Source: Zobellia galactanivorans (lineage in GTDB: Bacteria; Bacteroidota; Bacteroidia; Flavobacteriales; Flavobacteriaceae). From it: a stretch of 64,000 nt of DNA. Numbering within the stretch: position 1 is the first letter of the stretch; the number at the start of each line of letters is the position of its first letter. The stretch is taken from contig NC_015844.1 of NCBI RefSeq assembly GCF_000973105.1, forward strand, positions 4,088,501 through 4,152,500, in the 5' to 3' direction. The translations under genes and the position numbers were made by a program. The notes beneath the pieces are model-generated. The model searched no databases, was not told where the DNA came from, and saw only the letters and a list, made by a program, of their open reading frames with translations. Positions 13,301-54,381 of this stretch are shown in pieces.

Positions 13301-14884
13301 TTAGCAGTTTTTAAAGCCTGTAGAAACCACGTTTTTGTTGTTGTTCAATTGGTTTTCGATTTTCTTGGCGGTTTTGGTGATGGCCAATCCACCAAGGCCG
13401 GTACACCTTAAGGTATGGGGTATGGCGTCACCTACCTTTTTCATGGTTTCGATTACCTCGTCTAAAGGTATGACCTGGTCGTAATCGGAAAGCGCCATGT
13501 TGGCCGATGATATGGCCGTTGAGGCGGCCATTACATTTCGGTTGAGGCAAGGGGCTTCGACGCGGTCCGCAACCGTATCACAAATAAGTCCTAACGAACT
13601 TTGAAGCGCCATGGATGCCGCTGCCAATGCTTGGTTTAACGAACCTTCTTTTAGGGTAACGACCCCAGCTGCGGCCATACCGGAAGCGGAACCGCATTCG
13701 CCCATACAACCGCCAACTTCTGCGGAAAACGTTGCATGTGCGGTAATGAAAACGCCGATGAGACCGGCTGCTAGCATGGCTTGTACCATAAGTTCCCTAG
13801 AGAGCCCCATGGTTGTGCCCGTGCCGATAATAGTACCGGGCAATGCTCCGCAGGACCCGGCTGTGGGGGCGGCAACGATTACTCCCATGGAACTTTTTAC
13901 TTCCATCATGGCCGAGGTGAACATGATGGAGTTGTTGAGGACATCGCCACGAACAAGTTCTTTTTTGGTCATTTTCTTTTTAAAAACCAATGATTGGCTT
14001 CCTAGTATTCGGTCATCATAGTGGGTGCCTTTTAGGCCAAGGTCGATAGAGTTTTTCATGATATCTACTATCGTTCCCATTTTTTCGAAGACTTCGTCCG
14101 AAGATATATTGCCCCTAGTGCTTTCGTAAGCGACGGCCAGTTCCCATAGGCTTAGGTTTTTGTCCTTGTTGTATTCGAGCATTTCCTCTACCGTAATAAA
14201 AGGAACGCTTAGATTTTTTCTCGATTTAATGGGGAGTACCGGTTCTATTGATATGATGTCGTTTGCGTCTTGTAGCGCCGTAATGCTTTCAAACAGAATC
14301 TTTTGGTCGCCCGAATTTGAGTTGATCAAGACAAATGTGCTGCCGTTTGGATAAATGGTACTCTCCTTAAGGTCTAGCGTTTTAAGGGTGTTGGCGGTTT
14401 GCTTAGGTGTGTCCGAGTAAATTAAGGTGGTGTGGAGGTCTCCGAATAGTGAAACTGGGGTTTGGTCTATTTCTATGATTTCGATCATGCCGCCGCCTGT
14501 GGATAGGCCTATGACTTGGTGGCTCGTTTTTTCGTTTTTTAATGTTATTTTGTAAGTATTGGGATGGGTGGCGCCAATAGGGTGTATATCTATGGTTACC
14601 TTAATATGGGCTTCATCCATATGGAGCTGGTAGTCCTTTAGTCGCTCGTCATCCGCATTCCAGCCTAACAGGCCTCCAAAAAGTCCCATATCGGATCCCT
14701 GTCCCGAATGGGTCGTGGCCAATGATCCATTGGGGTCGAATTCAATGTAGACTTCCGTAATGTCGTTTTTCATAATGTCTCTGCAGATTCTGCCAATTCG
14801 CAGTGCCGCTGCACAGTGGGAGCTTGAGGGGCCTCTCATTACGGGTCCTATTACGTCATTGAAAATACTGGGGAATAAGCTCAT
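13301..14884 (-). CDS. L-serine dehydratase-like Fe-S enzyme
   Basis: A 527-residue single-chain enzyme of the iron-sulfur L-serine ammonia-lyase family, which converts serine to pyruvate and ammonia. The beta domain begins IFNDVIGPVMRGPSSSHC. The alpha domain has APTAGSCGALPG (C345) and GGCMGECGSASGMAAAG (C393, C397), the regions that supply [4Fe-4S] ligands, and a late Cys in TLRCTGLGGLAITK. It is longer than the roughly 455-475 residues common for one-chain forms. The usual SSSHT is SSSHC here. It shares the strand of the GH95 locus but is 215 bp upstream of susC, so co-transcription is uncertain. A substrate other than serine cannot be excluded. Confidence 0.82.
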   Translation of the reverse strand: MSLFPSIFNDVIGPVMRGPSSSHCAAALRIGRICRDIMKNDITEVYIEFDPNGSLATTHSGQGSDMGLFGGLLGWNADDERLKDYQLHMDEAHIKVTIDIHPIGATHPNTYKITLKNEKTSHQVIGLSTGGGMIEIIEIDQTPVSLFGDLHTTLIYSDTPKQTANTLKTLDLKESTIYPNGSTFVLINSNSGDQKILFESITALQDANDIISIEPVLPIKSRKNLSVPFITVEEMLEYNKDKNLSLWELAVAYESTRGNISSDEVFEKMGTIVDIMKNSIDLGLKGTHYDDRILGSQSLVFKKKMTKKELVRGDVLNNSIMFTSAMMEVKSSMGVIVAAPTAGSCGALPGTIIGTGTTMGLSRELMVQAMLAAGLIGVFITAHATFSAEVGGCMGECGSASGMAAAGVVTLKEGSLNQALAAASMALQSSLGLICDTVADRVEAPCLNRNVMAASTAISSANMALSDYDQVIPLDEVIETMKKVGDAIPHTLRCTGLGGLAITKTAKKIENQLNNNKNVVSTGFKNC

Positions 14885-15093
14885 TGTAAAAAGTATATGG
14901 GTGAATGTTGCCTTGTTGTTTTTTAAAGTTATGAATTTTCTAAATATTCATATTTATATGTGATAAAAAGAGTAAAGTCTTTCGTTTTTTATGGATTATT
15001 GGTTATTGTTTGATGAAAATGCTGTTGATTCGTCTAAGTTAATACTTTTTTTGTAAATTCGAGTTTGTAACTCTATTTAAAAAAGTCTTATAA

Positions 15094-15966
15094 ATGAACG
15101 CTATTGGGTTTAAAGTACCTTTTTTTAGAGGTAAATCTTTATATATAGAAGAATGGAGTGATCGCAATTTTTACAAGGCGGTGCATTTTCATGAAGAATA
15201 CCAATTGACCTATATTTTTAAGGGGGAAGGAACCCTTGTGGTCGGTTCAAAGAGTTATGGTTTCAAACCGGGTGATTCATATCTGTTCGGGAAAAATTTG
15301 CCCCATGTTTTTAGAAATGAAAATAACGAAGCCTTAACCGAAGAGGAGGCCAGGGCCCACTACATTAGTGTGTTTTTTAATGCGGACTCTTTAAATTCTA
15401 TGTTGAATGGTGTGCCGGAAACCGGGCCTATTGTCGAACTTATAAAAAAGGCCGACCTAGGGTTGAAGCTAGATCGCTTGCAATCACCCAAACTACTCCG
15501 GTCAATGAGTCGTTTAAAATCGAAGAACGGTTTTGAACGCTTGCTGGAGCTATTGTACATATTGGAAGATATTGCGGTAAACGGAAAAAATGAATGTTTG
15601 GCCAACGAAAATTGTAAAACAATCAGCCACGATGAATATGGCATTCGGAAACTGAACGAGATTTTTAAATTTATGGAGAACAACCACTCCAATAGAATAA
15701 CATTAGAGGATATCGCTACGCGTTTTAATATGAATCCTTCCTCTTTTTGTCGATTTTTTAAATCTAGAACCCAAAAGACCTTTTCGCAATTTCTGATAGA
15801 GTTACGGGTGGCCAAGGCCTGTGAGTTAATGCGGTCCGGTGCGCACAATGCCAGCGAAACCTGCTTTACGACCGGGTTTACGAACCTTTCTAATTTTCAC
15901 AGGCAGTTCAAGAGTGTTATAGGTATGACGCCGACCCAGTATAGGGATAGTGTGGCTACGTTTTGA
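15094..15966 (+). CDS. AraC-family regulator with cupin sensor domain (copy 1)
   Basis: A 290-residue transcription regulator. The N-terminal half is a cupin-like sugar-sensing fold (FHEEYQLTYIFKGEGTLVVG, then FKPGDSYLFGKNLPH). The C-terminal 100 residues are the double helix-turn-helix, with FNMNPSSFCRFFKS and ETCFTTGFTNLSNFHRQFK. It is divergent from the serine dehydratase and next to the GH95 locus. A weak promoter is possible: TTG at 15024-15026 and TACTTTTT at 15043-15050, seven of eight matches to TAnnTTTG. The next gene is a paralog in the same orientation, 65 bp away, and the pair is probably one transcript. Control of the neighbouring sugar genes is inferred. Confidence 0.88.
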   Translation: MNAIGFKVPFFRGKSLYIEEWSDRNFYKAVHFHEEYQLTYIFKGEGTLVVGSKSYGFKPGDSYLFGKNLPHVFRNENNEALTEEEARAHYISVFFNADSLNSMLNGVPETGPIVELIKKADLGLKLDRLQSPKLLRSMSRLKSKNGFERLLELLYILEDIAVNGKNECLANENCKTISHDEYGIRKLNEIFKFMENNHSNRITLEDIATRFNMNPSSFCRFFKSRTQKTFSQFLIELRVAKACELMRSGAHNASETCFTTGFTNLSNFHRQFKSVIGMTPTQYRDSVATF

Positions 15967-16031
15967 AATAGCCTATTTATTAGGGGGGGGCTATGGGAGT
16001 AAGTTGATGTAATAATATAAACCAGACGATT

Positions 16032-16895
16032 ATGAAAAAGATTTTTTCTTTTGGGTCGAATGTTTCCGCCCGATTGTACGATTCGGGCCGTTCTATTGAC
16101 GAATTTGTCGTGTTATTGGTATTACGTGGAAAGGGTGAATTTTTTATTGGGGATAATGTAGTGCCCTTTGTGAAAAATGATTTATTCTTTTTTGCGGGAA
16201 GAATAGCGCGTTCGTTCAATGATGATCAAAATAATGGAAGGGAAAATAAATCGAACAACTTAAAAGTTATATCCTTGTTCTTCAACTTGAGTCAAATTGA
16301 AGAAGCCCTTAACAATGTGCCGGAAGCCTATCATATTAAAAAGCTGATTTCCTTTGCCGATTATGGGTTAAAGTTGTCCTGTACAGAAAACCGGGCTTTG
16401 GCGAATCAAGTCCTTCAAATCCACAAGGCCAAAGGCTTGCATAAGATGTTGTCGTTCTATAAGCTTATAGATCATGCGTCTAGAAACAAAGATATAATGG
16501 TACTGTCGGCAAAAGCGGCGATGAAATGTAATCAGGCAAGTGAAGAGCCGAAGCTGAGAAAAATCTTCGATTTTATTAAAGAGAATCATAGGGATACGAT
16601 CACATTGGAACAAATTTCGGCAATAGCAAACATGTCACCTACCGGATTTTGTCGATTTTTTAAGTCTCATGAACAAAAAACGTTTTCACAGTATTTGGCC
16701 GAAGTTAGAATCGAAAGCGCTTGTAAAATGCTGAAGGATAAGGGGTATTCTATTTCAGATTGTTGTTACGGAAGTGGTTTTAATAATTTATCGAACTTTA
16801 ATCGGCATTTTAAAAAGCAGACCGGGATGTCCCCCTCCGAGTATCGCATTAAAGTAACGGGAGATTGCTCCGGTAAAAACCGCAAGTGTGCCTAG
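16032..16895 (+). CDS. AraC-family regulator (copy 2, diverged sensor domain)
   Basis: A 287-residue paralog of the preceding regulator. The DNA-binding halves are clearly alike: both have the block FCRFFKS followed by QKTFSQ, and both have NLSNF before the last helix, here followed by NRHFKKQTGMSPSEYR. The sensor half is more diverged, with FVVLLVLRGKGEFFIGDN and no obvious HxH motif. This suggests duplication with conserved DNA recognition and altered ligand recognition. The pair could compete for or co-occupy operators of the adjacent locus; that is inference. Confidence 0.87.
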   Translation: MKKIFSFGSNVSARLYDSGRSIDEFVVLLVLRGKGEFFIGDNVVPFVKNDLFFFAGRIARSFNDDQNNGRENKSNNLKVISLFFNLSQIEEALNNVPEAYHIKKLISFADYGLKLSCTENRALANQVLQIHKAKGLHKMLSFYKLIDHASRNKDIMVLSAKAAMKCNQASEEPKLRKIFDFIKENHRDTITLEQISAIANMSPTGFCRFFKSHEQKTFSQYLAEVRIESACKMLKDKGYSISDCCYGSGFNNLSNFNRHFKKQTGMSPSEYRIKVTGDCSGKNRKCA

Positions 16896-17139: not shown

Positions 17140-19377
17140 ATGAAGAGAGCTGTATTGAACGTTCTATTGGCAATTTTGGTATTTGTGAATGTGGGCTATG
17201 CGCAAGAAGCGAAAAAACTGACCTTGGCCGATATTTATAAAAACGGTGAGTTTGGCCAGAAAGGCTATGGTCCGATCAGGTGGATGAAAGACAATAAGGG
17301 CTATTCTACATTGGAGGCGAACAAAGATTTATCAGGTAAGGATATCGTTAAGTACGATGCCAAAACCGGACGAAGGTCCATTGTCGTTTCAGCGGCCGAT
17401 TTAATACCTCAGGGAAGTGAAAAGCCATTGGTTATCAAAGATTACAAATGGTCTGAAGACAACACAAAACTTCTCGTTTTTACCAATACCAGAAAAGTGT
17501 GGCGCTACCACACCCGTGGCGATTATTGGGTATTGGACCTTGCTACCAAAAAACTGGTCCAATTAGGTAAAACCTTGCCCGAGGCTACTTTAATGTTCGC
17601 CAAGTTTTCCCCAGACGGTTCTAGGGTCGGCTACGTTAGCAACCTGAATATTTATGTAGAGGATTTGAATACGAACAGCTTTACCCAGATTACCAAAGAT
17701 GGGGGTGATCATATTATTAATGGCACCTTTGATTGGGTCTATGAGGAAGAATTGAATTGTAGGGACGGGTTTCGATGGAGTCCCGACGGAGAGCATATCG
17801 CGTACTGGCAATCCAATACAGAAGGTGTGGGCACTTTTTATATGATCAATAATCTCGATTCTATTTATTCAAAGCCTATTCCAATGCCTTACCCTAAGGT
17901 GGGCACACAACTTTCCGCCGTAAAAGTAGGCGTAGTACCGGCAAAAGGAGGAAGTACAAAATGGTTTGATATTCCCGGGGACCCAAGAAATAATTATTTG
18001 GCCCGAATGGACTTTATTCCGAATTCTAACGAAGTAATGATCCAACAGCTCAATCGTCCCCAAAACACGAATAAGGTGTATGTGGCCAATGTTGAAACCC
18101 TTGAATTCAAAAATATTCTAACAGAGAAAGATGAAGCCTTTTTGGATATTCACGATGATATTCGATGGTTGGATAATGAGAGATATTTTACATGGTCTAG
18201 CGAACGCGATGGTTGGTTGAAACTATATAAGGTCTCAAGAGATGGTTCGGATATTCAGCCGATTACCAAAGGGGACTTTGATGTAGTGAGTATCAACTGT
18301 ATAGATCCCAAAAGTGGTTATGTATACTATATCGCTTCGCCCGATAACTTTACGCAACGTTATTTGTACAGAAGTAGGATTGATGGAAAGGGTACTGCCC
18401 AGCGTGTAACACCGGCGTCAAATTCAGGTCAGAACTCTTATCAGATTTCTCAAAATGCCAAATGGGGAATACATGTATTCCAAAATGCAACGACACCGTC
18501 CGTATATTCGCTGGTAAGTCTACCTTCCCATAAAACGGTACGCGTACTTGAGGATAATAAGGAGCTGAAAGAAAAATATGATGCGCTAAAACTGAATCCT
18601 AAGGAGTTTGTAAAAGTTGATATAGGCGATGATGTTCTTGATGCCTTTATGATCAAACCGATTGATTTTGACCCTTCAAAAAAATACCCATTGTTGTTTT
18701 ACGTGTACGGTGAGCCTGCGGGTGCTACGGTTCAAGATAATTGGGGTGGAGGAAGCCTTTGGGACCAATATATGGCACAACAAGGCTACATCGTAATGAG
18801 CGTTGATAACAGGGGAACGAAAACCCCTAGAGGAAAAAAGTGGAGGAATGCCATATATGGACAGATAGGTATTCTAGCGTCTGAAGACCAAAACAAGGCG
18901 GCAAATAAAATAATCGATACCTATGGCTTTATCGATCCGGCCCGAGTGGGTATTTGGGGATGGAGCGGTGGAGGCCAGATGACCTTGAACTGTATGTTCC
19001 GTTACCCAGGGACTTATAAGTCCGGGTTGGCCGTGAGCTTCGTATCCGATCAAAGATTGTACGATGCCACCTACCAAGAGCGCTATATGGGCCTATTGTC
19101 TGATAATGCCAAAGGCTACCATGACGGTTCCCCTATAAATTTCGCCCAAAACTTAGAAGGTAATCTTATGGTCATACACGGTACGGCAGATGATAACGTG
19201 CACTACCAGAGTTATGAAATGTTGGTAGACAAGCTAATCGCCAATAATAAGATATTTGATATGATGTCTTACCCCATGAGGGCGCATGGCATTTATGAAC
19301 GGGAAAATACTTCATACCATCTAAGACAGACCATGGAAAATTTTTGGAAGGAAAACCTGCCGGCAGGAGGTAAATAA
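17140..19377 (+). CDS. Dipeptidyl peptidase IV-type serine peptidase (S9B)
   Basis: A 745-residue exported prolyl peptidase. A signal peptide (MKRAVLNVLLAILVFVNVGYA) is followed by an eight-bladed propeller containing the double-Glu substrate clamp in DWVYEEEL, then an alpha/beta hydrolase domain. The catalytic triad is readable: S609 in GWSGGG, D684 in HGTADDNVH and H716 in MRAHGIY, with spacing close to human DPP IV. The nucleophile elbow is GWSGGG rather than the common GWSYGG. It should remove X-Pro or X-Ala dipeptides in the periplasm. The aminopeptidase P-type gene downstream would complement it in proline-peptide breakdown. Decayed copies of parts of both genes lie between them. Confidence 0.93.
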   Translation: MKRAVLNVLLAILVFVNVGYAQEAKKLTLADIYKNGEFGQKGYGPIRWMKDNKGYSTLEANKDLSGKDIVKYDAKTGRRSIVVSAADLIPQGSEKPLVIKDYKWSEDNTKLLVFTNTRKVWRYHTRGDYWVLDLATKKLVQLGKTLPEATLMFAKFSPDGSRVGYVSNLNIYVEDLNTNSFTQITKDGGDHIINGTFDWVYEEELNCRDGFRWSPDGEHIAYWQSNTEGVGTFYMINNLDSIYSKPIPMPYPKVGTQLSAVKVGVVPAKGGSTKWFDIPGDPRNNYLARMDFIPNSNEVMIQQLNRPQNTNKVYVANVETLEFKNILTEKDEAFLDIHDDIRWLDNERYFTWSSERDGWLKLYKVSRDGSDIQPITKGDFDVVSINCIDPKSGYVYYIASPDNFTQRYLYRSRIDGKGTAQRVTPASNSGQNSYQISQNAKWGIHVFQNATTPSVYSLVSLPSHKTVRVLEDNKELKEKYDALKLNPKEFVKVDIGDDVLDAFMIKPIDFDPSKKYPLLFYVYGEPAGATVQDNWGGGSLWDQYMAQQGYIVMSVDNRGTKTPRGKKWRNAIYGQIGILASEDQNKAANKIIDTYGFIDPARVGIWGWSGGGQMTLNCMFRYPGTYKSGLAVSFVSDQRLYDATYQERYMGLLSDNAKGYHDGSPINFAQNLEGNLMVIHGTADDNVHYQSYEMLVDKLIANNKIFDMMSYPMRAHGIYERENTSYHLRQTMENFWKENLPAGGK

Positions 19378-19404
19378 GTCCCTTTAAAACTTTTGGTGTC
19401 TTCC

Positions 19405-19485
19405 TTTTTTACAGAAAAGCATGGCACGTAGAGGGGGATTAAAAGAGAACGGGCCCTCTTGTGGGAAACGAGGAAACGGGTAGTA
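19405..19485 (+). pseudogene. Remnant of the 5' end of an aminopeptidase P gene
   Basis: This intergenic stretch aligns with the first ~100 bases of the intact M24 peptidase gene at 21246. It shares ACAGAA, the 10-mer GCACGTAGAG and TTAAA before GAG, in the same order. Further on, after a frame change, it encodes GNEETG where the intact gene encodes GNEEVG. Translation gives MARRGGLKE against IARRAKLKE. The reading frame is broken and no product is expected. It lies directly after the DPP-type peptidase gene, where a full aminopeptidase gene once may have stood. Confidence 0.6.
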
Positions 19486-19532
19486 GTGCTGGAAGCCGAT
19501 TAAGAATTAATTAATTTTCAAAACATTTGACA

Positions 19533-21116
19533 ATGTCATATCCAACAGTTTTCTGCGGCGCAGGTATACGACCTTATTTAGCCTTTCTTCTTTTTATCAC
19601 AGGCGCTATTGCAACGGCTCAAAAAAAGGAAGGATCGTCTGAAAATGTAGAGCGACCTAATATTATATTCCTGCTTTCCGATGATCAGACGAGTGTAGCC
19701 ACTGGTTGTTACGGAAACGACCAGGTGAAAACACCCAATATGGACCAATTGGCCAAAGATGGTGTGTTATTTCTCAATCACTATAATACGACCTCTATAT
19801 GTATGGCGAGTCGGGCCAATATATTAACGGGGATGTATGAATACAAAACCGGGTGTAATTTCATGCATGGTGACCTTGGGGTAGACAAGTTCGAAAATTC
19901 CTATCCGGTGTTGTTGAAAGCAGCTGGTTATTTTACGGGCTTTGCGGGCAAGGTCGGATTTGTACTTGAGGGGGGAGATTCAGAAAAAATCGAGGACGGA
20001 TTGCCGGTAGGTTATTTTGACAAATGGGGCGGAGGGCCTGAACAAACCGAATACGAGACGGCCAAAAACCCGACTATAGCAGGATATGCGAAGGAATATC
20101 CACATAGCACACGGGCCTATGGTGCTTGGGCGGGAGATTTTATAAAGGAGGCGAAGAGTTCAGGGAAGCCGTTTTGTATGTCCATTAGTTTTAAGGCTCC
20201 CCATTTACCTTTTACACCCGATCCTTTCTTTGATGGGGTCTATGCCGGACAAACCTATAAAAAACCCGATAATTACGGAGCGGAAAATGCCACCCATTTG
20301 TCGCCCCAGGCAAAATCGGGCCGTCAGTATAATTCCTATAATTTTTGGAGGGAGTCGGAAGCGTCCTATCAAGAAGCCATTACAAAATACAATCAGTTGA
20401 TCCATGGTGTGGATTATGCCATTGGAATGATTCGTAAATCCTTGGCGGAACAGGGTGTCGATAAAAATACCATCATCATTTTTACAAGTGATAACGGCTA
20501 TAGCTGTGGAGCCCATAACCTTGCGGGAAAGGTACTGCCGTATGAGGAAGCTTCCAGGTCGCCATTTATCATCTACGACCCACGGGCGCCCCAAAGCCAA
20601 CGCGGTATTAAGCGGAAGACCGTAACGGCCAATATAGATATGGCCCCGACCATCTTGAGTTATGCCGGTCTTGAAATACCTGAAAATATGGACGGGGAAA
20701 ACTTAGTGCCCTTAATGGCGAAGGAGTCGGGTGTTGAAAGAGATCATATAGCCTTGACCAATATGTGGGGAAACGATGAAATTCAGGCCATGTCCGTGGT
20801 TACCGAAGCCTATAAATATATCTACTGGCAATATACCGATGAACGCATGCGGCCTACGGAAGAATTGTTCCATATTTCGGAAGATAAACTTGAAATGCAC
20901 AATCTGGCAAAGGATGACGCCTACAAAACGGAACTGGCCCAAATGCGGAAGCTTTATGATGGGCAATATAAGCGTTTGGTAAAAGAGGGGATAAAAGCGA
21001 ACGATTACGAAAAATACGCTATTCTGTTCAATAGAAATGCCCCGGAGAGCGCGAAGAAACAGTATCGTCAACTTACGTATAAGAAGATGATCGAGAAGAG
21101 TCGAAATAAGAATTAA
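19533..21116 (+). CDS. S1-family sulfatase (CMASR type), periplasmic
   Basis: A 527-residue Cys-type sulfatase. The frame can be read from a TTG at 19527, but the ATG at 19533 is preferred. A signal peptide ends near ITGAIATAQ. Metal-binding and active-site motifs are LLSDDQTS, the formylglycine Cys C90 in CMASR (the C-x-A-x-R form), and TSDNGYSCGAHN. There is no lipid-attachment Cys, so it should be soluble in the periplasm. It stands between two peptidase genes, an odd place for a sulfatase, and its flanks are peptidase-gene remnants, so it probably arrived by insertion or replacement. Substrate unknown; an algal sulfated sugar is likely. Confidence 0.92.
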   Translation: MSYPTVFCGAGIRPYLAFLLFITGAIATAQKKEGSSENVERPNIIFLLSDDQTSVATGCYGNDQVKTPNMDQLAKDGVLFLNHYNTTSICMASRANILTGMYEYKTGCNFMHGDLGVDKFENSYPVLLKAAGYFTGFAGKVGFVLEGGDSEKIEDGLPVGYFDKWGGGPEQTEYETAKNPTIAGYAKEYPHSTRAYGAWAGDFIKEAKSSGKPFCMSISFKAPHLPFTPDPFFDGVYAGQTYKKPDNYGAENATHLSPQAKSGRQYNSYNFWRESEASYQEAITKYNQLIHGVDYAIGMIRKSLAEQGVDKNTIIIFTSDNGYSCGAHNLAGKVLPYEEASRSPFIIYDPRAPQSQRGIKRKTVTANIDMAPTILSYAGLEIPENMDGENLVPLMAKESGVERDHIALTNMWGNDEIQAMSVVTEAYKYIYWQYTDERMRPTEELFHISEDKLEMHNLAKDDAYKTELAQMRKLYDGQYKRLVKEGIKANDYEKYAILFNRNAPESAKKQYRQLTYKKMIEKSRNKN

Positions 21117-21117
21117 A

Positions 21118-21186
21118 AAACAAGGATATTTGTGGCGGACTATGGGAAATTGCCTAAAAGCACCTCTACCGGAAGAAGCTAAATAA
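21118..21186 (+). pseudogene. Remnant of the 3' end of a DPP-type peptidase gene
   Basis: It starts directly after the sulfatase stop. Bases 21136-21187 align without gaps to 19327-19378, the end of the intact DPP-type gene, with 35 of 52 positions identical by hand count. The frame is kept to a common TAA: the remnant reads RTMGNCLKAPLPEEAK and the intact protein ends QTMENFWKENLPAGGK. It lies just upstream of the intact aminopeptidase gene, mirroring the remnant at 19405. Confidence 0.68.
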
Positions 21187-21245
21187 GTAACTAGCCCGTT
21201 TTTTGATGGTTCAAGTTTTAAGTTTAATTATTTGATATTTTATTC

Positions 21246-22649
21246 ATGTTTTCAACAGAAGAGTACATAGCACGTAGAGCGAAGTTAAAGGAGTTGATGG
21301 GGAGCGGATTGGTGCTTCTTATGGGCAATGAAGAGGTAGGTATAAATTTTGAAGACAATATATACCCGTTCAGGCAAGATAGTAGCTTTCTTTATTTCTT
21401 CGGAATACAGACAAATGGTTTGGCCGCTATTATTGATTTGGAAAGCGGGGAAGAACTGATTTTCGGCGATGACCCGTCTATCGATCATATCGTATTTTCA
21501 GGACCGATAGAATCATTGCAAAGCCAAGCGGCGAAAGTAGGGGTGACCCATGTGAAGTCGGGTACAGATCTATCCGATTATCTAGGAGAGGCTGTTTCTA
21601 AAGGTAAAAAAGTGCATTACTTGCCGCCTTATAGGGCGGAACATGCCTTGAAACTTACAGATTTGTTACATGTGCCTACATCGAAGCTTAAAGAGCAGAG
21701 TTCTACTGAACTTATAAAGGCTATTGTGCAACTGCGCACCATAAAGTCGGAAGCTGAGGTGGTAGAAATAGAAAAGGCATTGAATGTTACGGTAGACATG
21801 CACTATAAGGCCATGGAAATGGCCCAACCTTTAATTAAGGAGTCCGATGTATATGGGGCCGTCAGTCAGATTGCATTGGCAAAGGGTGTTGGTACTTCTT
21901 TTCCGCCCATCGTAACCATTAATGGACAGATTTTACATAACCACTATAGGGGTAATGAATTGAAAGAGGGGGATATGCTACTTTGCGATTGTGGAGCGGA
22001 GATAGCTTCCGGCTATGCAGGGGACCTGACACGTACTTTTCCGGTATCTAAAAAGTTCAGTAAAGACCAAAAGGAAATCTACAATATTGTTTTTGAGGCA
22101 TATAGTACGGCCGTGGCCTTGCTAAAGCCGGGGAGATTGTTTTTAGACGTTCATTTGGCGGCCTGCGAAAAAATTGTGGAAGGCTTGATAGCATTCGGTC
22201 TTATGAAAGGAAATGCAAAGGAAGCGGTTGCGGAAGGCGCCCATACCATGTTCTTTCAATGTGGCCTTGGGCATATGTTAGGACTTGATGTACACGATAT
22301 GGAAAACCTAGGGGAGCAATATGTAGGCTATACCGATACCTTAAAACAACGGACCGATTTCGGTTTCCGTTCCTTGCGATTGGGGCGTGCCTTGGAAGAA
22401 GGCATGGTAGTAACCGTTGAACCTGGTATTTACATCATTCCCGAGCTAATTGACCTTAGAAAAAAAGAAGGCAAGTATCTAGACTTTGTAAATTATGAGA
22501 TGCTTGAAAAATATAGGGATTTTGGGGGAATTCGAATTGAAGACGTGTTCTTGATTACCCCGGAAGAAGGGGGTAGGATACTCGGTAATAGATTGCCGGG
22601 CTCTGCTGCGGAAATAGAAGAGTTTATGCTATCTCATCAAAGATTGTAA
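21246..22649 (+). CDS. Aminopeptidase P-type Xaa-Pro aminopeptidase (M24B)
   Basis: A 467-residue cytoplasmic metallopeptidase that removes an N-terminal residue before proline. The N-terminal half is the creatinase/prolidase-like domain (RQDSSFLYFFGI). The C-terminal pita-bread domain shows the dinuclear metal ligands: Asp residues in LLCDCGAEIASGYAGDLTRT, His in GLGHMLGLDVHD, Glu in VVTVEPGIYI and Glu in GIRIEDVFLI. No signal peptide. It would act on peptides left by the DPP-type enzyme upstream. A strong terminator follows at 22705. Confidence 0.93.
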   Translation: MFSTEEYIARRAKLKELMGSGLVLLMGNEEVGINFEDNIYPFRQDSSFLYFFGIQTNGLAAIIDLESGEELIFGDDPSIDHIVFSGPIESLQSQAAKVGVTHVKSGTDLSDYLGEAVSKGKKVHYLPPYRAEHALKLTDLLHVPTSKLKEQSSTELIKAIVQLRTIKSEAEVVEIEKALNVTVDMHYKAMEMAQPLIKESDVYGAVSQIALAKGVGTSFPPIVTINGQILHNHYRGNELKEGDMLLCDCGAEIASGYAGDLTRTFPVSKKFSKDQKEIYNIVFEAYSTAVALLKPGRLFLDVHLAACEKIVEGLIAFGLMKGNAKEAVAEGAHTMFFQCGLGHMLGLDVHDMENLGEQYVGYTDTLKQRTDFGFRSLRLGRALEEGMVVTVEPGIYIIPELIDLRKKEGKYLDFVNYEMLEKYRDFGGIRIEDVFLITPEEGGRILGNRLPGSAAEIEEFMLSHQRL

Positions 22650-22704
22650 TTGCTTTTACAGTTAGGCTTGCAATCTTTGTTTTGAGTTAATCAGTTTTAG
22701 TAGT

Positions 22705-22731
22705 AGGCCTTGGTAAAACAAGGCCTTTTTT
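22705..22731 (+). terminator. Intrinsic terminator of the M24 peptidase gene
   Basis: The stem GGCCTTG pairs with CAAGGCC across a six-base loop and is followed by five Ts. It lies about 60 bp after the stop codon. Confidence 0.85.
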
Positions 22732-22830
22732 ATACCGTCGAATTTTTTTTTAGCTGCAAAAAGGGGAGCTGTACTGATATAAAATGCGGTACAGGTGATT
22801 AGAAAAAACATAGCGGTTTTAAGGCTATGG

Positions 22831-22862
22831 TAAAAAAAAAGCCGGTCATAACGACCGGCTTT
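22831..22862 (-). terminator. Intrinsic terminator of the SYLF gene
   Basis: AAAGCCGGTC pairs with GACCGGCTTT around a five-base loop. The run of nine As on the plus strand becomes a U tract for minus-strand transcription. It ends the SYLF gene 17 bp downstream of its stop and faces the plus-strand terminator across a short gap. Confidence 0.88.
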
Positions 22863-22878
22863 AATTTACCTTCTAAAA

Positions 22879-24677: not shown

Positions 24678-26081
24678 ATGAAGTACTTAAACCTTAGCAA
24701 GTTAAAATCCATCCGTTATGGCGGTGTCTTTTTATTTATGGCATCCGGTCTATTATTGAGTTGTGAACCTGAAAAGGAAGCCATACCATACATCGATCTT
24801 TTTGATGGAGAAACCTTAACGGGATGGACGCAAAAAGGGGGAGAAGCTATTTATGAGGTCAGGGACAATGCCATTGTCGGGACCACGGTCAAAAATACTC
24901 CGAACTCTTTTATGACCACTGATAAAATGTACGATGATTTCATTTTGGAATTGGATTTTAAAGTAGATCCTTCAATGAATTCGGGTATTCAGATCCGAAG
25001 CAATAGTTTTCCGTATTATATGAACGGAAGGATACATGGGTACCAAGTTGAGATCGACCCATCTGATCGGGCATGGAGTGCCGGTATTTACGACGAGGCG
25101 CGAAGAGGGTGGTTACATCCGCTGGCCGACGATAACGTAAAGGCCAAACAAGCCTTTAAGCAAAACGATTGGAACCATTATCGTATTGAAGCGATCGGTG
25201 ATACCCTAAAGACCTGGATCAACGGCGTGCCGGCGGCTCATCTTATCGATAGCCAGACTGACAGTGGGTTTATCGGCCTACAGGTACATTCTATACATAA
25301 AGACCAAAAAGCGGGAACCGAGATCGCGTGGAAGAACATCAAGATCCTTACCGAAGATCTACAGAAATATGCAAAGGAGAGTCCTCTTCCCGCCGTTAAT
25401 ATGGCCAACAAATTGACCAAGAACGAAAAGGATCAAGGTTGGGAATTGCTCTGGGACGGAGAAACGACCAATGGTTGGAGAGGCGCTAAATTGGAAACTT
25501 TCCCGACAAAAGGCTGGGAAATCAAAGATGGTATCTTAACGGTATTGTCCTCCGGTGGGGAAGAGTCCGCTGCAGGGGGTGATATTGTCACTACCAAAAA
25601 TTACGGTAATTTTGAGATTATGGTCGATTTTAAATTGACCGAGGGCGCCAATAGTGGTATAAAATACTATGTGGATACCAACATCAACAAGGGAGAAGGT
25701 TCTTCCATTGGTTTGGAATATCAAATCTTGGACGATGACAAACATCCTGATGCCAAAAAGGGAAACCACGAAGGAAGCCGTACCGTTTCTTCGCTTTATG
25801 ACCTAATCAAAGCGGATCCCAAAAAACCGATCAAACCTATTGGTGAGTGGAATACTGCCCGAATCGTTTCTAAAGACAACCATGTGGAGCACTACTTGAA
25901 CGGGGCAAAGGTATTGGAGTATGAAAGAAAAAGTGAAGCCTATAGAAAATTGGTATCTGAAAGCAAATACGTAAAGTGGCCTAATTTCGGTGAACTCGAT
26001 AGCGGTCAGATCTTATTGCAAGACCATGGTGACAGGGTTAGCTTCAAGAACATCAAAATAAAAACGCCTAAAAACCAATAG
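24678..26081 (+). CDS. Double DUF1080 lipoprotein (3-keto-glycoside hydrolase family)
   Basis: A 467-residue lipoprotein (signal ending LLLSC) with two tandem DUF1080 domains, each beginning LFDGETLTGW or LWDGETTNGW. Domain one spans about residues 35-215 (SGIQIRSNS, HGYQVEID), domain two about 255-465 (SGIKYYVD, LEYQILDDD, GEWNTARI). The family, now linked to 3-keto-disaccharide hydrolysis or elimination, has a concanavalin-like beta-sandwich fold. The Gfo/Idh/MocA gene follows after two bases, so the two are co-translated: one protein may oxidise a sugar at C3 and the other cleave the keto-glycoside. Probably repressed by the LacI protein at 27646. Substrate unknown. Confidence 0.88.
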   Translation: MKYLNLSKLKSIRYGGVFLFMASGLLLSCEPEKEAIPYIDLFDGETLTGWTQKGGEAIYEVRDNAIVGTTVKNTPNSFMTTDKMYDDFILELDFKVDPSMNSGIQIRSNSFPYYMNGRIHGYQVEIDPSDRAWSAGIYDEARRGWLHPLADDNVKAKQAFKQNDWNHYRIEAIGDTLKTWINGVPAAHLIDSQTDSGFIGLQVHSIHKDQKAGTEIAWKNIKILTEDLQKYAKESPLPAVNMANKLTKNEKDQGWELLWDGETTNGWRGAKLETFPTKGWEIKDGILTVLSSGGEESAAGGDIVTTKNYGNFEIMVDFKLTEGANSGIKYYVDTNINKGEGSSIGLEYQILDDDKHPDAKKGNHEGSRTVSSLYDLIKADPKKPIKPIGEWNTARIVSKDNHVEHYLNGAKVLEYERKSEAYRKLVSESKYVKWPNFGELDSGQILLQDHGDRVSFKNIKIKTPKNQ

Positions 26082-49688: not shown

Positions 49689-50096
49689 TCAAAGCAAGGC
49701 TTCCTTCGTAGCTTTGTCTTCTTGGCGCCGTGAGGCCTGATATTCCTTTGGAAGTTCCCCGTATACCTTTTTAAAACATTTGGTAAAATACGAAGCCGTA
49801 TTGGATCCTGACATGTATAGGATTTCCTTAACGGTCAGGTCAGTGGTCTCCAATAACTGTTTCGCCCTTTTAAGCCTGAATCTTCTAATAAATTCCCCAG
49901 TGGATAGTCCAGTATATTCCTTGAACTTATTGTAAACGGCACTTCGGCTCATAGAAAGTGCGCTAGTGAGCGATTCTGCATTGAACTTGGCGTCCATTAT
50001 GTTCATTTCGAGCAGTTCAATAACACGGTTTAAAAATTCTTGGTCGGGTGATGTAACCATTATTTCACTTGGCGACAGCATAACTTCACGTTGCAT
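49689..50096 (-). CDS. Stand-alone AraC-type HTH, probably a hybrid two-component regulator tail
   Basis: A 135-residue protein from the ATG at 50096 (a TTG at 50108 is also in frame). It is nearly all one AraC-type double helix-turn-helix: LTSALSMSRSAVYNKFKEYTGLSTGEFIRRFRLKRAKQLL and ILYMSGSNTASYFTKCFKKVYG. The leading segment QREVMLSPSEIMVTSPDQEF is the linker that normally follows the receiver domain of hybrid two-component systems (HTCS) controlling polysaccharide loci. The similarity continues a few codons above the start (SRWELRNYMQ) until a stop at 50130-50132. So it looks like the DNA-binding end of a lost HTCS, perhaps still expressed as a free DNA-binding protein. Confidence 0.62.
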   Translation of the reverse strand: MQREVMLSPSEIMVTSPDQEFLNRVIELLEMNIMDAKFNAESLTSALSMSRSAVYNKFKEYTGLSTGEFIRRFRLKRAKQLLETTDLTVKEILYMSGSNTASYFTKCFKKVYGELPKEYQASRRQEDKATKEALL

Positions 50097-50432
50097 ATAG
50101 TTTCTCAATTCCCATCGTGACGAATAAATTTAATCGAACCCATATATTTCGCCTGCTTTTACCCTTAAAAAATCAAAAGTGTTATGGTTTTAAACATATG
50201 TTTCGATCCCTAGGGACAAAAACGATGCGTTGGGACGAACCAATGAATTAAAAGGAGAGGGGAAGCTATCGGCTGTTTAGGCCAAAACAACGCTACGATT
50301 TCTATACAAAAGACATTTGTTCTACAATTAAGAGTGATAGTTTTATGGAATTTGAAAGATTAATGACATTTTTGGGGAAGGACCTAAAGCGCGTCATTTT
50401 TAAATTCGATTTTTATTCCAAATATAAAAACT
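50097..50432. other. Intergenic region before the CSVAR sulfatase
   Basis: This is 336 bp of AT-rich sequence between the HTH gene and the divergent sulfatase. No receiver-domain remnant, terminator or clear promoter element was recognised. Confidence 0.45.
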
Positions 50433-52301
50433 ATGAAGTTACACCTTGTTTTTCCTGTACTTGCCTTACTACTTAATCTGTGCTGTAAGGAAGAGGAAAA
50501 AGTCGACCAAAAACCACCGAATATTGTCTGGATCGTTTCGGAGGATAATTCAAAACACTATTTGAAGTTGTTCGATGAAAACGGAATAGAGACGCCTAAT
50601 ATCGAAGCTTTGGCAGAACATGGCATACAATTCGATCGTGCGTTTTCGAACGCTCCCGTTTGCAGTGTGGCACGGTCTACGATTATATCGGGTTGCTACG
50701 CGCCTAGAATCGGGGCACAGTTCCATAGGCGTTCGAAATTGGTGCCCATGCCCGATAGTTTACGAATGTTTCCGGCCTATCTCCGTGATGCAGGCTATTA
50801 CACGGCCAATAACAGCAAGGAAGATTACAACCTTGTAAAAAGTGATGATGCTTGGGACGAATCGTCTGGAAAGGCCACATGGAAAAAACGCAAGGGGAAC
50901 CAGCCCTTTTTTTATGTACATAATATAGGAACTACCCATGAATCGCGGGTACACTTTCCTGAAAGCGATATGGAAAATGTGCCGACCATCACCCAAGGGG
51001 AAAAATATAAGGTGCAACCGAATCATCCCGATACTGAGCTTTTCCATTATACGAACGCCCGTTATCGCGATAAAATCAAGGAAATGGACGGCCAATTGGG
51101 AGAAGTGGTCAAGGCTCTTGAAGCAGATGGCCTTTTGGAAAATACCTTCATTTTCTACTACGGAGACCATGGCGGGGTATTGCCGGGCAGTAAAGGCTAC
51201 CTCTATGAAACCGGACTACACGTGCCTATGGTAGTTCGTATTCCTGAAAACTATAAAGATTGGGTCGACTTAAAAATAGGAAGTAAAACCGATCGCTTCG
51301 TAAGCTTTATCGATTTGGCACCAACGGTACTGAACTTGGCCGGCGTTCAAATACCCGAACAAATAGACGGCAAGCCGATTTTGGGAAATGGGGTAGACGC
51401 AAAAGAACTAGATCAAGAAAATGTCACCTACGGATATGCCGATCGGTTCGATGAAAAGTACGATATGGTGCGCTCCGTGCGTATGGGCAAATACAAATAC
51501 ATAAGAAACTACCAGCCCTTTAATTTTGACGGATTGATGAATGAGTATCGTTACAAACAAGCAGCTTATGGCGAATGGGAAAAAATGTACGAAGAAGGAA
51601 GGTTAAACGAGCAACAGTCCGCCTTTTTCAAATCGCGGGCCCCAGAAATGCTCTACGATGTAGAAAGCGATCCCTATGAAACCGTCAATTTGGCCGGTGA
51701 CCCTAAATTCGAAGCCAAGGTTCAAGAAATGCGCGGTCTACTGAACGACTGGGTCGAAGGTATGCCCGACCTGTCGTTTTATCCTGAATTTTACTTGATA
51801 GAAAATGCCTTTGATGCGCCCGTAGAATTTGGAAGGACACATCAGAAGGAAATTCAAGATTATATAGCAACGGCCAACCTAATGTTGGAAGAAGCTGCAG
51901 CTGTACAAGCACAATTAAAAGACTTGCTGCAATCTTCGGATCCATGGCAACGGTATTGGGCATTGATCGTCTGTAGTAGTTTCGGTGACGGCGTAAAGGC
52001 CCTTGTCCCTGACATTAAAGAAATAGCGAAAAATGACGGGCAAGCGGTCAATAGGGTAAGGGCTGCGGAATTTCTGGGAATGACCAAGACCGGTGATCCC
52101 GTTCCTATTATGCTAGAGGCACTTTATTCGGCCCAATACGAGACCGAAGCCCTATTGATCTTAAATTCCATTGTGCTTTTGGGGTCACATGACTACGGAT
52201 ATAATTTCCCGATTGACGAGCGTAAGATTTCCCCTGATTTCAGGAAAAAGAAATCGGAGGTCGTCCGTCGATTGGAATTTTTAAAAACCTCAAAAAAATA
52301 G
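50433..52301 (+). CDS. S1-family sulfatase with CSVAR motif and helical-repeat C-terminus
   Basis: A 622-residue sulfatase. The metal-binding start is IVSEDNSKHY, as in heparan-sulfatase-like and S1_8-like groups, with GDHGG later. The predicted formylglycine Cys is C77 in CSVAR, in which the third residue is Val rather than the consensus Pro or Ala. The signal region (PVLALLLNLCC) suggests lipidation, but the residue before the Cys is Leu or Cys rather than Gly, Ala or Ser. After about residue 480 the sequence becomes HEAT-like alpha repeats (SSDPWQRYWALIVCSSFGDG; NRVRAAEFLGMTKTGDPVP). Next to agaB and another sulfatase; substrate unknown. Confidence 0.9.
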   Translation: MKLHLVFPVLALLLNLCCKEEEKVDQKPPNIVWIVSEDNSKHYLKLFDENGIETPNIEALAEHGIQFDRAFSNAPVCSVARSTIISGCYAPRIGAQFHRRSKLVPMPDSLRMFPAYLRDAGYYTANNSKEDYNLVKSDDAWDESSGKATWKKRKGNQPFFYVHNIGTTHESRVHFPESDMENVPTITQGEKYKVQPNHPDTELFHYTNARYRDKIKEMDGQLGEVVKALEADGLLENTFIFYYGDHGGVLPGSKGYLYETGLHVPMVVRIPENYKDWVDLKIGSKTDRFVSFIDLAPTVLNLAGVQIPEQIDGKPILGNGVDAKELDQENVTYGYADRFDEKYDMVRSVRMGKYKYIRNYQPFNFDGLMNEYRYKQAAYGEWEKMYEEGRLNEQQSAFFKSRAPEMLYDVESDPYETVNLAGDPKFEAKVQEMRGLLNDWVEGMPDLSFYPEFYLIENAFDAPVEFGRTHQKEIQDYIATANLMLEEAAAVQAQLKDLLQSSDPWQRYWALIVCSSFGDGVKALVPDIKEIAKNDGQAVNRVRAAEFLGMTKTGDPVPIMLEALYSAQYETEALLILNSIVLLGSHDYGYNFPIDERKISPDFRKKKSEVVRRLEFLKTSKK

Positions 52302-52536
52302 TTTAGGGGATATCATTTTTTCGTCTCAATGAGCTAGTTGCCTTCTTTAATACTTAATAAGTGGTTTTCTACCTGTGTACCGATGTTTGTTTTTTAGTTG
52401 GAGTCCCAATTATTTTGGAGTAGAAAGGAAAGGAATCGTTTTATAGGCACGAGCACTACAATATCATACCTATACAAAGTTGCTTGAGCAAGAGGCCAAA
52501 AAGAAGAAAAATAAGAACATTCATAAAAAATAATAA

Positions 52537-54381
52537 ATGGGAATACTAAGTAAAGTATTGTACGCATGGGCCTTAGGTTCTAGCCTTTTGGGTACGATGG
52601 CAATGGCACAAACAGATAAAAAGCCAAATGTGATCATAATTTTGACCGATGATCAAGGCTATGGGGATATTGCGGCCCATGGCAACAAGGTTATCAAAAC
52701 GCCAACAATGGACAAGCTACACGATGAGGGCGTCCGTTTCACGAATTTTCATAGTGGAACGACCTGCGCGCCTAGCCGGTCGGGTTTGTTAACGGGAGTG
52801 GACGGTAACCGTGCGGGAGTATGGCATACCATTGGCGGCGCCAGTTTGCTTCGTGAAAAGTTTGTATTGATGCCCCAGATCTTTGAGGAAAACGGATATG
52901 CTACCGGAATGTACGGAAAATGGCATTTGGGCGATGCCTATCCGTACCGCCCCGAAGATAGAGGGTTTCAAGAAACCGTAGTACACGGAGGAGGAGGTGT
53001 AGGTCAAACCCCCGATTATTGGCAGAACAATTATTTTGATGACACGTATTGGCGAAACGGGGTTCCCGAAAAGTTTGAAGGCTATTGCACCGATATCTTT
53101 TTCTCGGAGGCAATGGATTTTATGGAAAGAAAAAAGGACCATCCTTTTTTCCTCTATATCTCATTGAACGCCCCTCACGGCCCATTGAACGTACCCCAGA
53201 AGTATTACGATATGTACAAGGGCGAAAAAACCATCAACGATGACCAAAAGGCCTATTATGGTATGATCACAAATATTGACGACAATATCGCCCTTCTAGA
53301 TAAAAAACTGGAAGCCTTGGGTTTGAAAGACAATACCATTTTGATTTTTATGACGGATAACGGTACCCAGACGGGACATAAAGTGGTTAAGGGAAAAGTT
53401 CAAGGTTATAACGCGGGTATGCGTGGGCATAAGGGTTCACAATACGAAGGCGGACATCGTGTCCCTTTCTTTATGCGTTGGAAAGACGGCAAGCTAACAG
53501 GGGGTCGCTCGATCGATCAACTGGCTATGAATTTTGATGTGCTTCCTACCTTGATCGACCTATGTGATTTGGGGAAAGTTCCAAATCTAGGTTATGATGG
53601 AAAAAGCTTGGCGCCCTTGTTGAACCAAGAAGTGGAGAAGCTTCCGCACCGCTATTGCGTAGTAGACAACAATCGTTTACAGCAACCTGTAAAATGGAGG
53701 ATGAGTGCTGTTATGGATGACGATTGGAGACTTATAGATGGCAAAGAACTATATCATATTAGGAAAGATCCCGGACAAGAAAAAGACATCGCTTCAAAAC
53801 ATCCTGAAAAGGTAAGGGAGATGCGTGAAGCCTATGAAAAGTGGTGGGACTATACGTCGCGTGATTTTTCGCGTTACGAGGCCTATAAAGTTGGTGTGCC
53901 TTCAATTGAAGAAACCACGATTACCGTTCATGACCTGCATAGCTCGGATCCCATAGCGTGGAACCAATCGTATATACGAGATCCCGAATCTGGCAAAAAA
54001 CCGGCCTTTGCCGATGGGTTTTATATGATAGATGTACAACAGGACGGATATTATGAAATTGAGTTGCGTAGATGGCCCAAGGAATCGAACCTGGCATTCA
54101 ATGCTACGCCACCACAGTTCGGACAGGCGGAAAAATGGTATAAGGTTTTGCCCCAAGGTGTTTCGTATCCGCTAAAAAGTGCGAGTTTAGATATTGATGC
54201 ACTGCATCTGGATAGTCCCGTTGACATGAAGTCAACTAACGTAACCTTTAAGGCGTATTTGGTGAAAGGCCGTAAACGTTTAAAAACGAGTTTTATTAGG
54301 GAAGACGGTGTTCGTTTTGGAGCGTTTTATGTCTATTTGAGAAAGGTGGGGGCCTTATCCGACCAAAAGGAAACCAAATAG
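52537..54381 (+). CDS. S1-family arylsulfatase-like sulfatase (CAPSR type)
   Basis: A 614-residue exported sulfatase. The signal peptide ends near LLGTMAMAQ. Active-site motifs are ILTDDQGYGD, the formylglycine Cys C77 in CAPSR, MYGKWHLGD and MTDNGTQTGH. The last 150 residues (from about 460) form a beta domain absent from the shortest family members. It follows the CSVAR sulfatase by 235 bp and may share its transcript. A terminator follows. Subfamily and substrate cannot be fixed by eye. Confidence 0.93.
   Translation: MGILSKVLYAWALGSSLLGTMAMAQTDKKPNVIIILTDDQGYGDIAAHGNKVIKTPTMDKLHDEGVRFTNFHSGTTCAPSRSGLLTGVDGNRAGVWHTIGGASLLREKFVLMPQIFEENGYATGMYGKWHLGDAYPYRPEDRGFQETVVHGGGGVGQTPDYWQNNYFDDTYWRNGVPEKFEGYCTDIFFSEAMDFMERKKDHPFFLYISLNAPHGPLNVPQKYYDMYKGEKTINDDQKAYYGMITNIDDNIALLDKKLEALGLKDNTILIFMTDNGTQTGHKVVKGKVQGYNAGMRGHKGSQYEGGHRVPFFMRWKDGKLTGGRSIDQLAMNFDVLPTLIDLCDLGKVPNLGYDGKSLAPLLNQEVEKLPHRYCVVDNNRLQQPVKWRMSAVMDDDWRLIDGKELYHIRKDPGQEKDIASKHPEKVREMREAYEKWWDYTSRDFSRYEAYKVGVPSIEETTITVHDLHSSDPIAWNQSYIRDPESGKKPAFADGFYMIDVQQDGYYEIELRRWPKESNLAFNATPPQFGQAEKWYKVLPQGVSYPLKSASLDIDALHLDSPVDMKSTNVTFKAYLVKGRKRLKTSFIREDGVRFGAFYVYLRKVGALSDQKETK

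Follow-up and report, generated by a model that had tools for sequence, protein, structure and literature searches.

The window, i.e. the whole stretch of 64,000 nucleotides analysed here, comprises positions 4,088,501-4,152,500 of the single-contig genome of Zobellia galactanivorans (5,521,712 bases). Its forward strand carries an intact gene for a DPP-type serine peptidase (17140-19377; DPPIV_N and Peptidase_S9 by Pfam), the product of which shares 88% protein identity with the DPP of the congeners G003 and G004, and an intact gene for an M24 peptidase of the aminopeptidase P type (21246-22649; Pfam), with orthologues in the same two congeners. Between them, on the same strand, is located a sulfatase gene with an intact open reading frame (19533-21116; Sulfatase PF00884 and SGSH_C PF16347 by Pfam) and orthologues in five other Zobellia genomes. 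The PF00884 sulfatase is predicted to be of the polysaccharide-utilization type, its orthologues lying in a SusC/D-GH16 cluster. Most of the remaining nucleotides between the two peptidase genes, all read on the plus strand, resolve into fragments of genes and spacers. Positions 19378-19486 (m24') are a fossil of the DPP-M24 spacer plus the 5' end of M24, with an internal deletion, and 19488-19532 (a') are a fossil of the 3' end of another sulfatase gene, gene A, together with the original leader between A and the sulfatase. Downstream of the sulfatase, 21117-21132 is probably a frameshifted remainder of its own C-terminal tail, 21133-21189 (dpp') is a fossil DPP 3' end with a left limit uncertain by approximately 5 bp, and 21190-21245 repeats the DPP-M24 spacer ahead of the intact M24 gene.

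By Pfam, the present neighbours of the sulfatase are a serine dehydratase, two AraC-type regulators, DPP and M24, a gene content fairly described by the first-pass annotation as unrelated peptide degradation. The serine dehydratase and the regulators (13301-16895) lie upstream of DPP, a place where G003 and G004 have none of them; outside the genus, the order serine dehydratase-AraC-AraC-DPP-M24 is shared by three genera of the family (L164, L165, L166). Among the nine Zobellia genomes of the genus set, the own genome (G000) included, serine dehydratase was found (E up to 1e-60) in that of the window only. On the other side, the gap of 10.5 kb (G003) or 7.5 kb (G004) between M24 and a Ysc84-like gene is missing in the window (22650-22878), and homology between the window and G007 downstream of M24 begins at 22796. 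Upstream of DPP, the sulfatase, M24, gene A and a further sulfatase gene, B, no strict match to the Bacteroidetes-type promoter consensus was found, and the single loose match precedes gene B. No mention was found in the literature searched of the locus tags ZGAL_3547-3552, 3573 and 3579, which were tentatively assigned to the region by counting.

A decayed M24 5' end behind DPP had been recognised in the first-pass annotation, and so had a decayed DPP 3' end behind the sulfatase; both fossils are real, with refined limits. Against the M24 start, positions 19378-19532 reach a local score of 46.5, attained by none of 1000 dinucleotide shuffles (maximum 37). The refined fossil 19378-19486 again scores 46.5 against the spacer and M24 start of its own genome (0 of 2000 real stretches of the window, maximum 37.5), more than against those of G003 (36.5, 0/2000 controls) or G004 (32.0, 5/2000), and its summed score over the three is 115, compared with a control maximum of 105.5. 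Boundaries for the tests with 2000 real stretches were set after the alignment had been seen. A repeat finder reports as the longest direct repeat in 19250-21400 the pair 19420-19447 and 21266-21293 (28 nt, 79%).

The right fossil passes the shuffle test alone by a narrow margin (score 38, maximum 36.5, 0/1000); in alignment with shuffled controls both fossils beat every shuffle. Among real stretches, none of 2000 reaches the summed score of 21128-21189 against the DPP 3' ends of the own genome, G003 and G004 (114, control maximum 74), nor that of 21128-21245 against the DPP end plus spacer of the same three (151.5, control maximum 85.5). DPP-derived sequence is firm from 21138, and approximately 21117-21132, at the left edge of this fossil, aligns better with the C-terminal codons of the sulfatase than with the DPP end. 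Blastn to the G003 sulfatase extends to 21130, beyond the present stop (21116); the summed score of 21117-21132 as sulfatase tail is reached by 65 of 2000 controls, a weak test of a short piece. When the nine genus genomes were searched by BLAST, no DPP or M24 ends were among the matches listed, neither for 19378-19532 (non-self E 0.054 or worse) nor for 21110-21245 (non-self E 0.026 or worse), which indicates that decay has put the fossils beyond the reach of an untargeted genome search, their support coming from targeted comparison. No convincing alternative source of the fossil spacers was among the matches listed.

M24 is present in three of the nine genus genomes (G000, G003 and G004), and DPP in the same three. 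DPP adjoins M24 in G003 and G004, with spacers of 53 and 57 bp and no sulfatase between them. Among a wider sample of loci with an M24 relative (the best 80 of 110 confirmed), 10 carry a co-oriented DPP gene no more than 100 bp ahead of M24, and some of the remainder are too short on that side to show one; in four other family genomes (L164-L167), too, DPP precedes M24, by 35-152 bp. DPP beside M24 without a sulfatase is widespread, and relatives of the kind that the first-pass annotation had named as support for a duplication, with the two genes adjacent and no sulfatase, do exist. In the joined regions of G005, G007 and G008 tblastn (E up to 1) found no trace of DPP or M24; the G005 region stops short of the place upstream of the Ysc84-like gene.

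Sulfatase orthologues occur in six of the nine genus genomes (own, G003, G004, G005, G007 and G008; 82-88% protein identity). In all five other Zobellia that possess one, it is located behind gene A in a SusC/D-GH16 cluster, away from DPP-M24. Gene A is followed directly by the sulfatase in G003, G004 and G008, and three genes lie between the two in G005 and G007. Downstream, gene B is the next neighbour in four of the five relatives, G004 being without B. The distance from the DPP stop to the sulfatase start is 43.8 kb in G003 and 48.9 kb in G004, with the sulfatase downstream on the same strand. The corresponding cluster of the window lies 31-33 kb downstream of the sulfatase between the peptidase genes, also on the same strand. 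It has kept, by Pfam and synteny, gene A (50433-52301, plus strand) and gene B (52537-54381, plus strand), sulfatase genes upstream and downstream of the ancestral sulfatase position, respectively, and lacks the intervening sulfatase. Genes for a GH16 enzyme, SusD and a TonB receptor also belong to it, with a fucosidase gene nearby (Pfam); judged from gene order, the cluster appears to be the agaB cluster of PMC5613140. Sulfatase relatives (E up to 1e-100) were found in 13 of 397 genomes of the family, and of four such hits outside the genus whose surroundings were inspected (G009 twice, G329, G351) none lies beside DPP or M24. By synteny, the sulfatase appears native to this neighbourhood, its original place being the cluster in the same window.

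The cluster itself varies among species. In G007 (L156, 1593-7930) a sulfatase, a TonB receptor and a SusD gene are located between gene A and the sulfatase, and G005 likewise has three genes there; the N-terminal region of the sulfatase of both is unlike that of the other species, as if replaced along with the three-gene insertion. A large cluster regulator (1378-1411 aa in G005, G007 and G008) is a 135-aa stump in the window (49689-50433), which keeps the AraC-type DNA-binding domain and differs from G007 by one internal deletion of approximately 3.9 kb. No regulator-like ORF was found at that place in G003 and G004.

The empty site between genes A and B retains a scar. Positions 52467-52536 (plus strand) are all that is left of the cluster's sulfatase copy, its 3' end, and over these 70 bp they match the G007 sulfatase end at 90% (E 1.6e-20; 0/2000 controls); 56 of 63 positions are identical, the differences being six transitions and one transversion. 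The other 165 bp of the site (52302-52466) match neither sulfatase ends nor the corresponding sequence of the relatives above controls. Neither a derivation of 52302-52400 from the beginning of the three-gene insertion seen in G005 and G007 (sum 37 versus a control mean of 36.4, reached by 850 of 2000) nor an extension of the scar into 52400-52470 (651/2000) withstood the controls.

Matching material is found on the left side of the sulfatase between the peptidase genes. Compared with the end of gene A plus the A-sulfatase leader, 19486-19532 scores 43 against G004 (control maximum 29.5, 0/2000), 27.5 against G003 (3/2000) and 18.5 against G008 (128/2000), and the sum of the three is reached by no control (0/2000). 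Blastn to G004 begins at 19493, in the last codons of gene A and 40 bp before the sulfatase start codon; in the BLAST of 19378-19532, the A-sulfatase junction of G004 is among three non-self matches tied at the top (33.7 bits; E 0.054). As sources, the G005 and G007 sulfatase leaders and the end of gene A in the window itself were rejected (373/2000 controls reach the sum). By these alignments, the left fossil ends at approximately 19486 and is followed by the end of gene A and the old leader. The moved block accordingly begins in the last codons of gene A, and it probably ends in the last codons of the sulfatase. As its leader matches G003 and G004, and not G005 and G007, it stems from a G003/G004-like arrangement without the three-gene insertion.

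The tail of the relocated sulfatase shares 42 of 56 positions with the G007 end, and the scar shares 43 of 58 with that tail. Two different sulfatase 3' ends in one genome show copying and subsequent loss of the source copy, not cut-and-paste. The relocated gene as a whole is also too divergent from G007. The synonymous-codon difference between the relocated sulfatase and G007 is 143/436 = 0.328, versus 0.104-0.170 in seven neighbouring cluster genes; 8 of 15 overlapping sections of the gene reach 0.36, compared with 1 of 132 control sections. These differences are clustered along the gene (4/5000 shuffles), and no such clustering is present between Z. galactanivorans and G003, G007 and G003, or G003 and G004 (967, 748 and 617 of 2000, respectively). 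In trees of blocks that were picked after the divergence profile had been seen, the relocated copy and G007 group together in the high-divergence blocks (support 89) and in block 990-1580 (70), and G007 groups with G005 in the first 150 nt (83). Outgroup-rooted trees of the whole gene (41-56) and of the low-divergence blocks place the root around the relocated copy and G007, with supports of 41-67 overall, and those of the whole sulfatase do not resolve whether these two are closest kin. The simplest reading of this mosaic is that the copy predates the split from G007 and that the two sulfatases, while both were present, exchanged patches of sequence; recombination with an unsampled species could also account for the excess divergence. 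G007 has no trace of DPP or M24 and no second sulfatase copy in the 88 kb examined, though this dating requires that its ancestor had them.

We consider it probable that the sulfatase moved within its chromosome by a copy-then-loss route, the copy having arisen in a tandem duplication that reached from the end of DPP to the end of the sulfatase. The ancestral order on one strand would have been DPP-M24, 44-49 kb of other sequence, and A-sulfatase-B, as still found in two relatives (one without B). A tandem duplication would then have created a new joint between the last codons of the sulfatase and the last ~55 bp of DPP, with the product DPP-M24-...-A-sulfatase | dpp'-M24-...-A-sulfatase-B. 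A deletion in the first copy, from approximately codon 30-35 of M24 to the end of gene A, would have left DPP-m24'-a'-sulfatase-dpp'-M24. Two sulfatases may thereafter have coexisted 30-50 kb apart, apparently swapping sequence patches, until in the window's species the cluster copy was deleted but for its last 70 bp, and in the nearest relative, G007, the cluster copy would have been kept and the peptidase locus lost. The first-pass annotation had likewise invoked a tandem duplication, and a duplication does explain the order DPP, m24', sulfatase, dpp', M24; its duplicated unit, a DPP-M24 pair alone, is not supported, the unit being most simply the segment bounded by the 3' ends of DPP and the sulfatase.

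Several observations agree with such a duplication. In the relatives with the older order (G003 and G004), DPP, M24 and the sulfatase lie on the same strand within one segment. A novel joint of sulfatase end to DPP end is present, with dpp' behind the sulfatase (0/2000 controls), although its exact position is blurred by the tail piece (65/2000). Complementary remnants occur at both sites, i.e. m24', a' and dpp' at the new one and the sulfatase scar at the old one. Source and target are moreover close together and on the same strand, both of which a tandem duplication needs; in a genome of 5.52 Mb, the probability that a copy lands by chance on that strand and no more than 49 kb upstream is ~0.4%. 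No remnants of other genes of the segment were found between m24' and the sulfatase or in the nine genus genomes, and none of these nine has both sulfatase copies, which lowers the claim for a large duplication. The fuller reading, in which a segmental tandem duplication followed by complementary losses relocated the gene in nature and left both junctions and the source scar legible, the coexisting copies exchanged sequence and two related species fixed opposite copies, is one that we favour only slightly.

The final anatomy alone fits an insertion with a target duplication of ~200 bp as well as it fits tandem duplication and deletion. In such a direct insertion, with long target duplication or by template switch during replication, the stretch from the end of A to the end of the sulfatase would have been copied into the DPP-M24 junction in one event, and the source lost later. 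It would yield the same arrangement in a single step, with a duplicated target of only ~215 bp (DPP end, spacer and M24 start, as estimated from the alignment), and would leave no remnants of the rest of the segment, as observed; an extra gene indeed lies between direct repeats of the target, with the empty site in G003 and G004. Events of this kind are described for Helicobacter pylori in the accessible text of PMC1643837. Direct insertion does not, however, predict that source and target share a strand and lie no more than 49 kb apart, unless template switching was short-range, and we regard this route, the main rival, as possible but rather unlikely. The fossils at both junctions, the empty and filled sites of the relatives, the source scar and the two distinct sulfatase 3' ends are direct observations. 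The preference for tandem duplication over direct insertion, like the order and number of the losses and the exchange of sequence, should be taken as our reconstruction of the locus.

An import of the finished DPP-m24'-sulfatase-dpp'-M24 arrangement by homologous recombination from an unsampled Zobellia lineage could be read from the raised synonymous difference to G007 (0.328 versus 0.104-0.170 for the neighbours), from the lack of DPP-M24 in G007 and from the upstream serine dehydratase confined to the window's genome among the nine of the genus. Against it, the fourfold-site differences of DPP and M24 to G003 and G004 (0.58-0.63) resemble those of the gene at 24678 close by (0.60-0.64) and give no hint that a sampled lineage was the donor, and the Ysc84-like gene next to DPP-M24 in the window also follows the pair in G003 and G004, at distances of 10.5 and 7.5 kb. 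An import would merely shift the relocation to another species and leave the fossils unexplained, and we hold it to be improbable. The history proposed in the first-pass annotation, in which a DPP-M24 pair was duplicated and its inner M24-DPP part replaced by an unrelated sulfatase from outside, fits the order of the fossils, but it is contradicted by the cluster with its scar 31-33 kb downstream on the same strand (31 kb off in the same window), where relatives keep the sulfatase, and by the gene A end carried in the moved block, and we give it almost no credence.

An origin by a transposon or insertion sequence was considered; the seven genes scanned (DPP, sulfatase, M24, serine dehydratase, the two AraC-type regulators and the Ysc84-like gene; larger ORFs, Pfam) include no transposase. 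Seven weak inverted pairs, given without a chance control, are present in 19250-21400, and two of them span the sulfatase: 19372-19392 with 21213-21233 (21 nt, 76%) and 19296-19309 with 21359-21372 (14 nt, 86%).

Tandem duplication and random loss (TDRL) is a model used for mitochondrial gene orders. Relocation of the sulfatase by duplication and loss would share its logic, leftover pieces included; the TDRL literature found concerns animal mitochondrial genomes, unlike the bacterial chromosome treated here. For the related SNAP hypothesis, an experimental follow-up by Cao and others was reportedly published in 2022. In SNAP (Brandis and Hughes 2020, PMC7055797), a segment is duplicated under selection and different genes are lost from each copy; the accessible text of that paper regards pseudogenes with matching active copies as possible remains of the process and states, as of 2020, that there was no direct empirical evidence for it yet in modern bacterial species. 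The present locus resembles SNAP as there described in its duplicated segment, complementary losses and altered gene order. It differs in that only losses and junctions are seen, and no selection for the duplication, and in that the net change is one gene instead of a scrambled segment. Insertion with long target duplication (Nobusato et al. 2000, via PMC1643837) was found by comparing related genomes, the inserted gene lying beside long direct repeats of the target, and is, in the accessible text of PMC1643837, often tied to restriction-modification genes; here, in contrast, a metabolic gene was moved inside its own neighbourhood from a source site that is known and bears a scar. Transposed genes of Arabidopsis, as far as described in the accessible text of PMC2869330, are likewise flanked by repeated host sequence and can be traced to a parental site, but belong to a eukaryote, with recombination through circles as the mechanism proposed. 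Our literature search, with most subscription journals outside its coverage, found no bacterial example in which fossils at both junctions accompany a scar at the source, and the origin of the sulfatase and the scar at its source are new here.

Gene moves in bacteria that do not involve mobile elements are mostly inferred from orders before and after the event, because the intermediate scraps vanish. At this locus scraps are kept at both ends, so that the steps of the route (duplicate, diverge, delete) are legible and can be given a rough date by comparison with a related species. If the reading by duplication and loss is true, it would be evidence of the kind that SNAP was said to lack. Its signature, ends of the flanking genes beside the moved gene together with a scar where that gene used to be, offers a search pattern for other genomes. 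For Z. galactanivorans, an enzyme gene of a polysaccharide cluster now lies between peptidase genes, in a genome in which the same cluster is also without most of its large regulator gene.
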